Shown here: piece by piece, positions 19,354 to 25,501 of the stretch
How positions within the stretch are numbered: position 1 is the first letter of the stretch
How the letters are laid out: each line of letters starts with the position of its first letter
IMG/VR virus record: IMGVR_UViG_3300005527_000221
Span: 1 to 28,740 of that record
Source: a virus
Length of the DNA: 28,740 nt
Direction: 5' to 3' (one strand)
Notes under the pieces: generated by a model
What the model saw: the letters and a program-made list of their open reading frames with translations, nothing else
Database searches by the model: none
What the model was told of the DNA's origin: nothing
Program-made: the position numbers and the translations under genes

Positions 19354-19608
19354 TTATCTTTTAGATTTGTTTTTAATTTTTTCATATTCCTGTTTTTGTT
19401 CCTCTAGTTCTTTTTGCCATAAATCCAGAAAAATCCTTCTTTCCCATACTGGCATATTTTGAACAGATTCGTAAGAAAATCTCATATGTTTTACCATATA
19501 ATATATTTCCCTACGTAAACTTAAACTATATTCTGACGTTAGGCCAAAAAAAGTTGAGTCCGATGGTAATTGGAGCTTGAAATGTACCAGTCGGCCCCTC
19601 CACCTCAA
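19354..19608 (-). CDS. Small tail assembly ORF overlapping the gp26-like gene
   Basis: The open frame gives 84 residues, but the first about 20 (MRWRGRLVHFKL...) overlap the gp26-like gene out of frame and look non-coding. From about residue 25 the sequence is convincing: LRREIYYMVKHMRFSYESVQ, NMPVWERRIFLDLW, then a charged helix. It resembles small proteins found after gp26-like genes in other T4-like phages. No ATG lies between the end of gp26 and the REIYY segment; the first usable ATG (19497, MVKHMRF) would cut into it. Either translation starts at 19497 (47 residues), or the segment is joined to the gp26-like protein by slippage on the seven-T run at 19546-19552. The frame is +1 relative to gp26. 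Confidence 0.6.
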   Translation of the reverse strand: MRWRGRLVHFKLQLPSDSTFFGLTSEYSLSLRREIYYMVKHMRFSYESVQNMPVWERRIFLDLWQKELEEQKQEYEKIKNKSKR

Positions 19609-20302
19609 CCGACATGTCTATTCCTGGTTCAATTTTATCTGAATATTCTCTAAACTTAAGTGAATCGTAAGCTGGCATTACATTTATAAATTGTTGTATA
19701 AAGTTTATATCTCTATTACCATCAACTTCTTTAATTTGTGTTTGTAATCTATAAGTTAATGTATTTGATATTTGTGACTTAGTGGCTTTTTCATATTTTT
19801 CAGTTTTTGAAGCAATGCTTTTTTCATCACCCACTGTTAAAAGTTTAAACTTAATCATTTTCTTACTTCTAGGTAATTCAAAAGAAAATTCACCGTTTTC
19901 ATCAGGTTCTATACCATCAAGTAAGGGCTTAGACTTTAATTGACTTAAATCGACCTCATACTCAAATTCAACACCACTATTAGGATCAGTTAATTTAACA
20001 GGATAAATTTCACCATACCCTGTAGCTCGTAACCAAATCATAATAGCATTTCTATCACCCACCAATAATTGTTCAAAAGGTACTGGTGCTTCTTTTATTT
20101 TCCTTTCCATTAAAACATCAATAACTTTACCACTCTTAATTAAATTAGGTGATGTTAAGATGTTTTCATCCATAGCTGTCATATATTCAACTTTTACATT
20201 TCCATTTTGACCTGGATATAATAAACCTTTTGATGGCAAAGGTATAACATCGAATGGTGTTTGAAATTGAATCTCTTGTGTTTGTTGTTTTACATTTGAC
20301 AT
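19526..20302 (-). CDS. gp26-like baseplate hub or tail assembly chaperone
   Basis: This 258-residue protein matches the pattern of T4 gp26-like proteins: FDVIPLPSKGLLYPGQNG near the start, then VEYMTAMDENILTSPNLIK, then LLVGDRNAIMIWLRATGYGE. A short domain (YPVKLTDPNSGVEFEYEVD) stands where relatives often have a CxxC zinc ribbon; here the cysteines are missing. The helix KFKLLTVGDEKSI and the end IGLNFFWPNVRI agree with the family. T4 gp26 takes part in hub assembly; related proteins before tape measure genes act as tail assembly chaperones. The start ATG at 20302 is followed by a natural N-terminus and preceded by an A-rich leader. Its promoter is unclear: CTATTTATTAATA about 80 bases upstream is only a weak version of the late motif. 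Confidence 0.75.
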   Translation of the reverse strand: MSNVKQQTQEIQFQTPFDVIPLPSKGLLYPGQNGNVKVEYMTAMDENILTSPNLIKSGKVIDVLMERKIKEAPVPFEQLLVGDRNAIMIWLRATGYGEIYPVKLTDPNSGVEFEYEVDLSQLKSKPLLDGIEPDENGEFSFELPRSKKMIKFKLLTVGDEKSIASKTEKYEKATKSQISNTLTYRLQTQIKEVDGNRDINFIQQFINVMPAYDSLKFREYSDKIEPGIDMSVEVEGPTGTFQAPITIGLNFFWPNVRI

Positions 20303-20412: not shown

Positions 20413-20443
20413 TTTGCCAATAATGATTAAATTAGTAAGTTTG
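20413..20443 (+). promoter_or_regulatory. Host-type (Bacteroidota) promoter of the peptidase gene
   Basis: TTTG at 20413-20416 and TAAGTTTG at 20436-20443 are 19 bases apart, a full match to the Bacteroidota housekeeping promoter (TTTG at -33, TAnnTTTG at -7). The predicted start of transcription is near 20450, about 15 bases before the ATG. It lies in the 162-base gap between the divergent gp26-like and peptidase genes. Confidence 0.75.
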
Positions 20444-21486: not shown

Positions 21487-21963
21487 TTAATCAGGTTCTT
21501 TTAATCTAACTTCATATTCAACACCACCTTCATCAAAATAAGAAATTTCAACACTTTCAAGATAAGCTGGAACATCAGAACCAGCAACAAAATCTGACAT
21601 GTCTTTAGATGTACCATAGGCGTCTTCGTCATCATAAGACCCCAAAGCCAAATCAATACTTTTGGCTAATACCGACACATCTTTCCATATACTATAACCA
21701 CGAGAATCCAATAGAACCAAATAAAATTTACAAACATTAACAAAAGTTTCAAATTCTTTTGGATCTTCAGAATGAAAAACAAATTCTTCCCTAAGATATG
21801 TATCAGCATATTCCCACTCTGTTTTCATAACAAAAAGATTACTTTTTTGTGGTTTGTTTAAGGGTTCTTTGACAATTTCAAAAGGCAGAGTTTCATTATT
21901 AATGAACTCATTAGCCCATTCAAAATCAGATTCTCTTAGTATTTTTTTTATTAATGTTTTCAT
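21487..21963 (-). CDS. Protein of unknown function with shared N-terminal motif
   Basis: This 158-residue acidic protein begins MKTLIKKILRES, almost the same as the start of its upstream neighbour (MKDLIRKILKEN), although the rest differs. The body includes FETFVNVCKFYLVLLDSRGY and an acidic stretch DDEDAYGTSKD, and ends YFDEGGVEYEVRLKEPD. No enzyme motif is visible. Its ATG lies 38 bases inside the end of the upstream gene, so the N-terminal motif is encoded over the other protein's C-terminus in another frame. The two are probably translated together. The stop lies directly beside a bidirectional terminator. Confidence 0.75.
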   Translation of the reverse strand: MKTLIKKILRESDFEWANEFINNETLPFEIVKEPLNKPQKSNLFVMKTEWEYADTYLREEFVFHSEDPKEFETFVNVCKFYLVLLDSRGYSIWKDVSVLAKSIDLALGSYDDEDAYGTSKDMSDFVAGSDVPAYLESVEISYFDEGGVEYEVRLKEPD

Positions 21964-22408
21964 TTAATTGACTTTCTAATTCTTCTATTCTAGATTTTAA
22001 TTCTTCTATTTCGGATTCACTTTCTTCTTTACCCCTTTCATAACCTTCTTCCCTCGCTTCCTCAACTTCTTCTTCATGAGTTTCATACCATATATAATCA
22101 TCACAACAACCATCACAAGTACAATTATCCATACCAGAATCATAACCATCACGATGTCCGTTATCGTGAACTTCTTGAAATTGATCGTACAATATTTCAG
22201 CCATACTTAATAATTGTTTAGGGTCGTATACACCAAAATCTTTCAATTCATCAAAAACATCTTCCAAATCAGCACCAAAATCCATTTCAATTTGACGCCA
22301 TTTTTCATAAACAATTTTTTTTCCTTGTTCTATTGAATGTTCGTCAGCCTCAACCCAACCAAACTCATCTTCGTTTTCTTTTAATATTTTACGAATTAAA
22401 TCTTTCAT
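21926..22408 (-). CDS. Coiled-coil protein with a cysteine cluster
   Basis: This 160-residue protein starts MKDLIRKILKEN, has an acidic helical middle (residues 40-80), then a cluster C96, C98, C101, C102 (CxCxxCC) flanked by histidines H81, H85 and H111 that could bind a metal. Residues about 112-150 form a strongly charged coiled coil (EEVEEAREEGYERGKEESE and so on). The family is not recognised. A late-promoter-like motif ends only four bases before the ATG, so the mRNA may be leaderless or nearly so. The gene overlaps the next one by 38 bases. Confidence 0.75.
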   Translation of the reverse strand: MKDLIRKILKENEDEFGWVEADEHSIEQGKKIVYEKWRQIEMDFGADLEDVFDELKDFGVYDPKQLLSMAEILYDQFQEVHDNGHRDGYDSGMDNCTCDGCCDDYIWYETHEEEVEEAREEGYERGKEESESEIEELKSRIEELESQLNENINKKNTKRI

Positions 22409-22411
22409 ATC

Positions 22412-22467
22412 ATATAAATATCTTTTTTATTGAAAAAATTTTGCCATTAATTAAAAGATATTTATAT
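22412..22467. repeat. Perfect 15-bp inverted repeat around divergent promoters
   Basis: The left arm ATATAAATATCTTTT (22412-22426) and the right arm AAAAGATATTTATAT (22453-22467) are exact reverse complements, separated by 26 bases. Each arm contains the late-promoter-like motif, pointing outwards: left towards the gene at 22408, right towards the small RNA. Confidence 0.85.
22413..22422 (-). promoter_or_regulatory. Putative phage late promoter motif
   Basis: The minus strand reads GATATTTATA followed by TGAT and the ATG at 22408. The spacing of four bases is the shortest of all copies. If this is a promoter, the transcript would start at or very near the start codon. Confidence 0.5.
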
Positions 22468-22470
22468 TTG
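22440..22470 (+). promoter_or_regulatory. Host-type (Bacteroidota) promoter of a small RNA
   Basis: TTTG at 22440-22443 and TATATTTG at 22463-22470 are 19 bases apart, the same layout as the peptidase promoter. Even the bases after the -33 element agree (TTTTGCCATTAAT against TTTTGCCAATAAT). It points into a gap with no protein gene on the plus strand. The -7 element overlaps the right arm of the inverted repeat. Confidence 0.65.
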
Positions 22471-22475
22471 TATTG

Positions 22476-22619
22476 TTAAAGAAACAGGGTTGAATTGGTT
22501 AGTCCCTTGAACCTAATCAACGTAATGACACGAAACGTCAAGGTGAAACTCCTCAATCATTAACGGATATTAATGGTGAAAAATAAAAACCCCACAGTCA
22601 GAATACTAGTGGGGTTTTT
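22476..22619 (+). ncRNA. Putative structured small RNA of about 145 nt
   Basis: The stretch lies between a host-type promoter and a strong terminator on the plus strand, opposite to all nearby genes, and has no convincing reading frame. Several helices can be drawn: GTTGA (22489-22493) with TCAAC (22517-22521) enclosing GGTT (22497-22500) with AACC (22510-22513); TGAC with GTCA (22526-22540); and CATTAA with TTAATG (22558-22575, extendable to eight pairs). CCTTG in the first loop (22505-22509) can also pair with CAAGG (22539-22543), which would compete with the second hairpin or form a pseudoknot. I recognise no known RNA family. It could be a regulatory RNA or a leader cut short by the terminator. 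Confidence 0.55.
22585..22619. terminator. Bidirectional terminator
   Basis: AAAAACCCCAC and GTGGGGTTTTT form a perfect 11-bp stem with a 13-base loop, followed by T-rich sequence on both strands. It ends the putative small RNA (plus) and the gene at 22622 (minus), whose stop lies two bases away. Confidence 0.88.
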
Positions 22620-22621
22620 AA

Positions 22622-23026
22622 TTATACAAATATTTGTAATTGTCCTCGACCTATATCGAAATCTTGTTTATTCATGACAGTGATGACACTAAGAACCCAA
22701 TCATAAGGATTTTTCATTTTTGGTTCTATTATAACATTTAAATATGGTGAATTTTTTTGTGAAACAATAAAACGTACATTGTCTTGAATTTGTTCCATTG
22801 CTATATTAAAACTTATATCGTTTTTAGCCCATTCAATAAGATCTTTTATATTACTATCATATATTCTTTCACCACCAGCTTTGCCAACATGTCTCCACTT
22901 TCTGTCTTGACCATGTTCACTTCTCTCGTCATGTCTTAAATCAAAATTAATTATGAGGTTAGCGGTTATCTGAGCTATCTTTTTCTCTAGAATAAGTTGT
23001 TCCTTAATTATATGTTTAATATTCAT
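22622..23026 (-). CDS. Small protein of unknown function
   Basis: This 134-residue protein starts MNIKHIIKEQLILEKK, a variant of the motif shared with neighbours. The next part, FDLRHDERSEHGQDRKWRHVG, is rich in H, D, E and R, and the second half looks like a small antiparallel sheet (NVRFIVSQKNSPYLNVIIEP, WVLSVITVM). This order resembles small RelE- or DUF4258-like folds, but the evidence is weak and no catalytic set can be named. It starts nine bases after the upstream gene's stop and ends at a strong terminator. Confidence 0.7.
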   Translation of the reverse strand: MNIKHIIKEQLILEKKIAQITANLIINFDLRHDERSEHGQDRKWRHVGKAGGERIYDSNIKDLIEWAKNDISFNIAMEQIQDNVRFIVSQKNSPYLNVIIEPKMKNPYDWVLSVITVMNKQDFDIGRGQLQIFV

Positions 23027-23881: not shown

Positions 23882-25465
23882 CTATTCAGAAAAATATTCC
23901 CATCTTATATTACCACAATCATATATACGGTAATATCCACGTTCAAACATTATTTCACGTTCAGATTTGTTTTTATCAAACCCTTGTTTAACCAAAACGT
24001 TTTTCTTGAAATTTAATCTATGGTATCTAATCGTATTATTAACGTACCAATAATTTGGTTGAGATGGTGTTGTTGGTTTAAACCCTAACAATTGATATAA
24101 TTCACCCGAAAACCACCTTCTATCAGAGTAAGAGATAACATTTTTAGGTTCATAGTTTTTTATAAAATATTTAAATAACTTAGATGCTGAACCAACAACG
24201 ATCGTATCTTTTTTATTACAAAATCTAATAAGTTCCCAATCTATAGTTTTACCAATACCATTTCGTCTACCAAAGGTCATTAATGAAACTAATTCGTCAC
24301 CATAGAATAAACCCAATTTGATTGTTGTGTTGACAGAACCTTGTATGTGATTATCCTCTAAAAAATCTTTATGTTGACCACTTGTTACTAATTTAATCCT
24401 ACAATTTCTGGCATATACCCTTTGGGTAATCAACCCTAATTTGTTTTTTATTATAGATAGTACCACATCTTTTTTATACAACCACTCGTCCTCAAATATA
24501 TGTATTAAATCCATTCCGTTTTTATCACACAATTCCGTCTTATTTAAATGATACTCAGTGTTAACAAAAAGTTCGTTATGCCAAAATAACCCATTGAATT
24601 CGATGGCGAGGTTAATTTGTGGTATTAAAATATCTAATTCTAACTTAGTACCAGGTATTTTGGTGTGTCTTAAATGTGCCACACCCCACTCATTTAATAT
24701 CTTAGATAACTCATCTTCATAAGAGGAAGAAAAGGACATACCAACAGGATTACAGTTAGTACAATTAACATATTTGTGTTTAACACGTTCTCTAAGTAAA
24801 CTTTGGGATATCTTATATTCGGTGTGACAATCGTCACACAAAATCTCCAATTCCGATAAATCTTCTGAAATATTTTTAATATTTAAATTAGGGTATCTTT
24901 CCTTAATTTTATTCTTTAATAAATCCCTATATTGTTTTGTTTTACAGAAATTATCTTCACCGTATTTATTTAAACACGTCTTCTTATATAAGTCAAAATT
25001 GTTATAATTTGTATTACCATATTTATCCAACTTGGTGGATAACATTTTTCCTACGTTATTATAGTTTTCATTACCGTATCTAACTGATTTAGTTTTTTTC
25101 TGCTTACCAACAAAATCTTTGTGTTGGGTGTAAAATTCAACACCGTGGTTTTCTAGGTTGGACTTTTTAATTTTATCTATTAATAAACCACTCTTGTTAG
25201 CACAATCCAACGAACAAAACTGATTGTAACCTCTATCGAACCTTTCCGAAAATTTAACCGTTGAACCACAGGATTCACAACAAGGTCTACCATCTAGTGC
25301 GTTGAAATAAACCCAAACCTTCTCTTTGAAAGAAGAATCTGTTGGTAATTTACTACCACAATAATCAATCACCGCTTGATATTCCTTTGGGTGGTTTTTA
25401 GAAAACCACGACTCTTTGGTCTTATGACCAGATTTATTGTCTGTTATAAAAAAAGAAAAGTCCAT
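23882..25465 (-). CDS. Free-standing homing endonuclease, EDxHD (Vsr-like) type
   Basis: With the ATG at 25465 the protein has 527 residues. It begins with a zinc finger (CCESC and CSLDC, C62/C63/C66/C84/C88), then three repeats with KYG-x-x-N (for example RYGNENYNN, KYGNTNYNN, KYGEDNF), a probable DNA-reading region. A second zinc ribbon follows (C210, C213, C235, C238). The nuclease domain starts at SSYEDELSKIL (E250) and continues with LELDILIPQINLAIEFNG (D278, E289), LFWHN (H296), YHLNKT (H306) and FEDEW. This agrees with the I-Bth0305I/Vsr-like family. It would cut alleles without the gene and spread by repair. It is inserted after the tail tube gene. An upstream TTG at 25501 or ATG at 25489 would place the promoter inside the coding region, so the later ATG is preferred. 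Confidence 0.82.
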   Translation of the reverse strand: MDFSFFITDNKSGHKTKESWFSKNHPKEYQAVIDYCGSKLPTDSSFKEKVWVYFNALDGRPCCESCGSTVKFSERFDRGYNQFCSLDCANKSGLLIDKIKKSNLENHGVEFYTQHKDFVGKQKKTKSVRYGNENYNNVGKMLSTKLDKYGNTNYNNFDLYKKTCLNKYGEDNFCKTKQYRDLLKNKIKERYPNLNIKNISEDLSELEILCDDCHTEYKISQSLLRERVKHKYVNCTNCNPVGMSFSSSYEDELSKILNEWGVAHLRHTKIPGTKLELDILIPQINLAIEFNGLFWHNELFVNTEYHLNKTELCDKNGMDLIHIFEDEWLYKKDVVLSIIKNKLGLITQRVYARNCRIKLVTSGQHKDFLEDNHIQGSVNTTIKLGLFYGDELVSLMTFGRRNGIGKTIDWELIRFCNKKDTIVVGSASKLFKYFIKNYEPKNVISYSDRRWFSGELYQLLGFKPTTPSQPNYWYVNNTIRYHRLNFKKNVLVKQGFDKNKSEREIMFERGYYRIYDCGNIRWEYFSE

Positions 25466-25470
25466 ATATA

Positions 25471-25501
25471 CAAATATATGAACTTTCATTTTGGTTGTCA
25501 A
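25471..25501 (-). promoter_or_regulatory. Host-type promoter of the homing endonuclease gene
   Basis: On the minus strand TTG (25501-25499) and TATATTTG (25478-25471) are 20 bases apart. The predicted transcription start is about six bases further, which is the ATG at 25465, so the mRNA may be leaderless. Confidence 0.55.

Follow-up and report, generated by a model that had tools for sequence, protein, structure and literature searches.

Type III toxin-antitoxin systems (ToxIN, CptIN, TenpIN) place an RNA of repeated motifs or H-type pseudoknots beside a small protein gene; the ToxI repeats precede the toxin gene on its own strand, and ToxN belongs to a different family from the protein considered here. 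The antitoxins of RelE and HigB are proteins. To our knowledge, no RNA antitoxin has been described for a toxin of the RelE fold, and a limited literature search likewise returned none. In Clostridioides difficile prophages, the RNA of the AbiF/RCd22 system binds and neutralises the neighbouring protein, also in trans, according to the available part of PMC12373285. The locus compared here is from a window of 28,740 nt, positions 1 to 28,740 of the IMG/VR virus record IMGVR_UViG_3300005527_000221. A 318-kb viral contig (G001) has a 6.4-kb piece identical to the window, and tail-tube and baseplate-hub matches identify the region as tail genes.

Within the part of its description available, AbiF/RCd22 is the closest working analogue: a phage small RNA with two motif hairpins, its own promoter and terminator, and an adjoining protein gene. 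However, the abiF RNA motif (RF03085) is absent from the Rfam matches of both the window and 22430-22640, and p134, the product of the adjoining gene here, has no AbiF (Abi_2-type) Pfam match. Here the two genes are convergent and have separate promoters, whereas there the RNA is upstream on the same strand. The RNA is like those of type III systems in being structured and repeated or pseudoknotted, but p134 has no ToxN match and the RNA is convergent to it rather than upstream on its strand. Since the motif of the RNA, the family of the protein, the arrangement of strands and the promoters all differ, the locus was assigned neither to AbiF nor to type III.

The sequence-only reading had described a 213-nt gap (22409-22621), flanked by minus-strand genes at 21926-22408 and 22622-23026, as a complete plus-strand unit of promoter, RNA and terminator, and on direct reading all three are where it had placed them (Table 1). 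In the available text of PMC7366714, the Bacteroides promoter consensus has TTTG at about -33 and TAnnTTTG at -7, and for Flavobacterium the -7 part alone is given as confirmed. The promoter of the window RNA matches the Bacteroides TTTG/TAnnTTTG consensus. Its claimed likeness to the promoter of the peptidase gene was also borne out, with TTTG-N19-TAAGTTTG found at 20413. From the gene start at 22408 to the RNA promoter there is room for a 15-bp inverted repeat (ATATAAATATCTTTT/AAAAGATATTTATAT, window 22412-22467), which two relatives (L036 and L038) do not keep.

Table 1. Features of the RNA-p134 locus, in window coordinates.
Feature	Positions	Strand	Remarks
Bacteroidota host-type promoter, TTTG-N19-TATATTTG	22440-22470	+	direct reading and the consensus in the available text of PMC7366714
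Structured small RNA, ~144 nt	22477-22620	+	both ends predicted from promoter and terminator
H-type pseudoknot	22486-22520	+	AGGG 22486-22489 with CCCU 22504-22507; UUGGUUAG 22495-22502 with CUAAUCAA 22513-22520
Hairpin UGAC/GUCA, loop ACGAAAC	22526-22540	+	similar to hairpin 2 of the other RNA class, whose loop is of the CGAAA type
Hairpin AGG-UGAAACU-CCU	22541-22553	+	outer pair seen as A-U, G-C, C-G and U-A
Hairpin AUCAUUAA/UUAAUGGU	22556-22577	+	three pairs altered on both sides
Terminator hairpin, usable on either strand	22585-22619	+	stem a perfect 11-bp inverted repeat, AAAAACCCCAC/GTGGGGTTTTT; loop motif GUCAGAAUAC at 22597-22606
p134, 134-aa convergent gene	22622-23026	-	H38 and R42 invariant; leader IIKEQLILE at the N-terminus

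The window RNA folds better than expected by chance, with a z-score of -2.55, and 4 of 200 shuffles fold equally well. It was first found again in L028, L036 (which equals L037) and L038, by a BLAST comparison of the gap with related sequences. A DNA pattern scan gave 10 stretches, nine with the RNA, including the new pair L120/L124, and one (L121) by apparent chance; two matches of the same pattern in genome contigs were set aside as chance, and L121, L126 and L127 were excluded as chance pattern matches. Identity to the window is higher for the RNA (89.9% in L028, 81.1% in L036, 81.8% in L038 and 89.9% in L124) than for the adjacent gene (77.4, 66.7, 65.2 and 74.2%, respectively), and equal in the most distant relative, L137 (60.3% versus 59.5%). 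The several helices noticed in the sequence alone are conserved in relatives with compensatory changes: in a five-sequence alignment 98.9% of cells are paired and 8 of 37 pairs have changed on both sides, a result matched in pairing and compensation by none of 500 shuffles, while slid structures were 28.6-48.9% paired. A covariance model of these five RNAs then found L137/L138 (E 1.4e-8) and L389 (E 8.1e-12); hits of the model elsewhere, at E 0.003-1, were counted as noise. The strands of the five helices follow in the same order in all seven window-class RNAs, and 180 of 182 listed pairs are standard, the strands having been picked by eye for this count.

One element had to be replaced. The pseudoknot CCTTG/CAAGG proposed earlier lacks its partner in L036 and L038, and AGGG/CCCU is supported instead. 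It is kept in all seven window-class RNAs and invariant in five, with AAGGG/CCCUU in L137 and UGGG/CCCA, a single compensatory change, in L389. In L036 and L038 the UGAC/GUCA stem lacks its last pair. A reading frame is not conserved, as had been suspected: the one starting ATGACACGAAAC in the window, L028 and L124 collapses to ATG-TGA in L036 and L038, and a small peptide product was rejected on this ground. The suggestion that the RNA belongs to no known family agrees with Rfam, the check named at the time, which gave no match at the gathering score for the whole window; for 22430-22640, a cut-off relaxed to E 10 let through 30 matches, all with E 0.02 or worse and under their family thresholds, and most of them covered the terminator hairpin on one strand or the other. 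The stretch GGUGAAAAUCC, which we take to resemble a cobalamin riboswitch, was rejected as one, having no Rfam match. The 318-kb genome has no trusted second copy of the RNA, since the next matches of the covariance model were at E 0.0054 or weaker and ACGATTYAGATAC is absent. Overall, these comparisons support a small, structured and so far undescribed RNA that has a promoter of host type at one end and a terminator at the other.

Most relatives have RNAs of another class, with one to four hairpins bearing the loop GGnAACGAUUYAGAUACAA. Read by eye, the 27 loci inspected have an opposite-strand promoter-like box and a terminated RNA beyond the p134 stop codon, and in most of them GGAAACGATTYAGATACAA or a near form makes up both the first hairpin loop and the terminator loop. 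When 22 of the 23 motif RNAs extracted were aligned to three hairpins, 96.1% of cells were paired and 13 of 20 pairs had changed on both sides. No shuffle out of 500 did as well, and slid versions were 26.9-46.9% paired; the number of further pair types, one of five measures used, did not exceed that in shuffles. Loops in this class are constant and stems vary. Many of its members have a CGAAA-type loop in the second hairpin, as the window RNA has ACGAAAC, and the two classes therefore seem to share a plan. Mimicry of 16S rRNA by the loop was considered and rejected: for two full-motif forms, 159 and 161 of 600 shuffles scored equally high, and with cheaper gaps 76 and 50 of 600, which is not significant. 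BLAST with the RNAs against named phages and plasmids gave LR745206 as the single convincing record, and it was the one of nine named phage records with the motif. This 634-kb phage (LR745206.1) has three single-hairpin copies (L304, L305, L306), each after a host-type promoter.

The convergent gene is as little labelled as the RNA. H38 and R42 are invariant among 24 aligned p134 members, and in L201 R42 is replaced by Q. Searches of PHROGs, Pfam, NCBIfam and PADLOC with p134 and relatives gave no convincing family, the best matches being chance-like (E 0.0013-0.0025), and no Pfam match to ToxN/CptN/TenpN or AbiF (Abi_2-type) was found with five members at E up to 10 or 24 at E up to 0.1. Among named records, relatives were found in LR745206 (by tblastn) and LR756508 (by profile), and in plasmids there were none. 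Two AlphaFold2 models have mean pLDDT of 81.0 and 85.7; Foldseek against the PDB gave no significant match for p134 (best E 0.098 and 0.19). In a second structural comparison (VIA), which lists RelE, HigB, ParE/YoeB and T4 RegB entries, the first model had pantothenate kinase on top at Z 4.2, with toxins from 4.1 downward, while for the second model entries for RelE, HigB or a complex of toxin and antitoxin filled 10 of the top 11 rows (Z 3.6-3.9) and Hsp70 scored 3.5. Z values under 5 can arise by chance, and unrelated rows score as high (4.2, 3.5). No ToxN, AbiF or other family is prominent in these second comparisons, which exclude none. From about residue 24 to 131, the helix and strand order of the p134 model is like that of RelE/HigB toxins and the T4 RegB endoribonuclease, but the Z values are about 3-4, there is no sequence match, and p134 has an extra N-terminal helix. 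The p134 model bears a weak likeness to RelE/HigB toxins, and "RelE-like" is used here as a working label.

The N-terminus suggests a possible link with the virion. In the available text of PMC9026906, T4 internal proteins have a short N-terminal capsid targeting leader with an L/I-x-E site, after which gp21 cleaves. p134 is like these proteins, so far as they are described there, in having a short N-terminal leader with sites of the L/I-x-E type (IKE and LILE), and G001 encodes a gp21-type prohead protease (PF03420, E 6.9e-31). Most distinct p134 members start IKE(Q/H)L(L/I)LE, the same pattern that had served to find members. Of the 334 ORFs of G001, 16 have a LIKKILKE-like leader within their first 20 residues, while no ORF has one at residues 21-40 or 41-60; given the gp21-type protease in the genome, these may target the capsid. 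The p134 leader is not among the 16, and its packaging and cleavage are putative. In L142 the p134 gene follows what appears by eye to be the major capsid gene. Packaging of p134 in the virion is plausible on such sequence features. The leaders of those 16 ORFs (L011-L026) and of window 21487-21963 and 21926-22408 form one family, of the M-K/R-N-L-I-K-K-I-L-K-E type, on otherwise unlike proteins.

Expression signals of the two genes differ. All 26 representative loci have a -7 box (TAnnTTTG) ahead of the RNA (235 of 2600 random 110-nt windows), and 17 of them have the two-box promoter (37 of 2600). On the p134 side, TATTTAT is located no more than 30 nt upstream of the gene in 24 of the 26, the exceptions being the window and L028. 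Across G001, 65 of the 334 ORFs have TATTTAT ahead of them (8 in the control interval) and 23 have a host-type promoter (2 in the control). TATTTAT shortly before an ATG is likely a phage promoter element; a role in late genes is speculative. The RNA would be made early and the p134 protein later.

In the window and its relatives the RNA accompanies the convergent gene, an association absent from the sequence-only reading. In L120/L124 it lies amid quite different genes, again beside a p134 homologue. A protein scan gave 61 p134 loci, of which 60 were used (L188, with a partial gene, was omitted), and a second retained 80 of 117 relatives; as both looked for patterns drawn from the leader and the domain, the 47 distinct p134 proteins obtained are not a random sample. 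By the protein scans alone, 44 of the 47 have the motif no more than 340 nt past the stop codon, on the other strand (25 of 25 in the first scan and 37 of 40 in the second, the sets overlapping). The remaining three are L412 and L413, with a one-letter variant recognised by eye, and L389, with the pseudoknot-type RNA. A count including motif-found loci is also 44 of 47; the protein-only count is the one relied on. L386 and L410 have the motif without the exact -7 box. By rough clustering, the upstream neighbours of 44 loci form 15 groups, of which 13 are left when L301, L302 and L303, which have no RNA, are taken out, so that the pair recurs next to about 13 different upstream neighbours. In four relatives (L040, L042, L043 and L044) the neighbouring tail-tube, p160, p158, peptidase and hub genes are retained; p134 is lacking at the site, as a second look at the records of L040, L042 and L044 also showed, and the covariance model found no RNA there above noise. 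The great majority of phages found with p134 have a convergent, structured and terminated RNA gene with a host-type promoter.

The reading preferred here, at a probability of roughly one half, is that the RNA and p134 are an undescribed RNA-protein pair in which the RNA putatively binds and restrains a RelE-like, possibly virion-packaged p134. Host RNA polymerase would produce the RNA, early or constantly, and phage-type promoters would drive p134, whose leader would direct it into the capsid and so to injection. The hairpin loops (in the window class, the pseudoknot and loops) would bind p134, and bound RNA would curb its RelE-like, RNA-directed activity inside the producing cell, much as a type III RNA antitoxin does, but with a different protein family and a convergent layout. 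Counted in favour are the linkage in 44 of 47, the roughly 13 neighbour contexts, the joint absence in the four relatives above, the p134 homologues elsewhere in the two large records with unlinked motif RNAs (LR745206 and G004), structure support in both RNA classes, the constant loops, and the RelE/HigB rows at the top of the structural comparison. Counted against are four RNA-less homologues, seven p134-less records, the non-random choice of the 47 proteins, the non-significant Foldseek results and the low Z values. A bolder version, in which these phages of Bacteroidota have a new effector class, a capsid-delivered RelE-fold ribonuclease with a hairpin-repeat or pseudoknot RNA as antidote, made by host polymerase from the incoming genome, is unlikely as it stands; the injected enzyme would hit the host first, and RNA from the same cell would then shut it off.

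The exceptions to linkage bear on the alternatives. The four p134 homologues L301, L302, L303 and L332 lack an RNA of this kind in the adjoining stretch read, and the p134 domain may have a wider, RNA-independent role. LR756508 has a p134 homologue and no motif, the sole such case among eight motif-less named phage records. Conversely, seven records of 8-67 kb and uncertain completeness (G002, G003, G005, G006, G016, G017, G018) have the motif RNA and no p134 that could be found, and motif RNAs without p134 nearby are present in L190, L193, L213, L216, L240, L248, L259, L262 and three LR745206 places. Such RNAs could be host-directed decoys, the loop binding a host protein or RNA and p134 being a frequent companion, for example a second takeover factor. 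This would suit the single hairpins right after host-type promoters in L190, L213, L248, L259, L262 and the three LR745206 places, the two-hairpin forms in L193 and L240, and L216, where the RNA is kept and an ORF (1380-2063), homing-endonuclease-like by eye, is at the would-be p134 place. It fits poorly with the RNA found beside nearly every p134 from the protein-only scans, and with the window RNA class, seen only beside p134, though in few examples; in addition, the large records LR745206 and G004 (L213), with their unlinked motif RNAs, do carry p134 homologues elsewhere. A decoy is possible, if somewhat unlikely.

The frequent position of a hairpin directly after the promoter could also point to a cis element, either a processive antiterminator or merely a shared terminator with a leader structure, and in L190, L213 and L304 there is a further promoter-like box downstream. 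But the RNA ends in its own terminator, the plus-strand sequence beyond it is antisense to p134, and the separate hairpins are under selection, so that such an element is improbable. The same position recalls Racr RNA anti-CRISPRs, in which a hairpin would mimic the host CRISPR repeat and misdirect Cas proteins: they are likewise short phage RNAs immediately after a promoter, and in the available text of PMC10651486 solitary repeat units of phages are often so placed. Here, however, there are several hairpins or a pseudoknot, an own terminator and a linked protein gene, which would be an unexpected partner, and it is the loop that is constant and the stems that vary; the odds for a Racr-like RNA are accordingly slim. 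An antisense or base-pairing regulator of divergent or other late mRNAs, the earlier idea, is the least probable, even with exposed loops that could pair with mRNAs and promoter DNA in common with the gene starting at 22408: by coordinates the RNA should start at ~22477 and would therefore share with the divergent gene only that promoter DNA, with no overlap, and it abuts the p134 stop codon without covering that gene.

Both halves of the proposed RNA-p134 pair are unlabelled in the libraries searched, yet the pair is present in many environmental viral contigs, and a limited literature search found no paper on it. If the RNA does restrain p134, RNA-antidote systems gain a protein family and a gene layout, and the GGnAACGAUUYAGAUACAA loop would be a compact test of RNA reading by a small protein; if it is instead a host decoy, the conserved loop points to an unknown host factor.

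Two further observations concern the surrounding tail genes. At the baseplate-hub gene, two minus-strand ORFs in different frames overlap (19354-19608 and 19526-20302), possibly a programmed frameshift. A homing-endonuclease-like gene (23882-25501) adjoins the tail-tube gene in the window, and in L036 and L038 it is directly beside p134.
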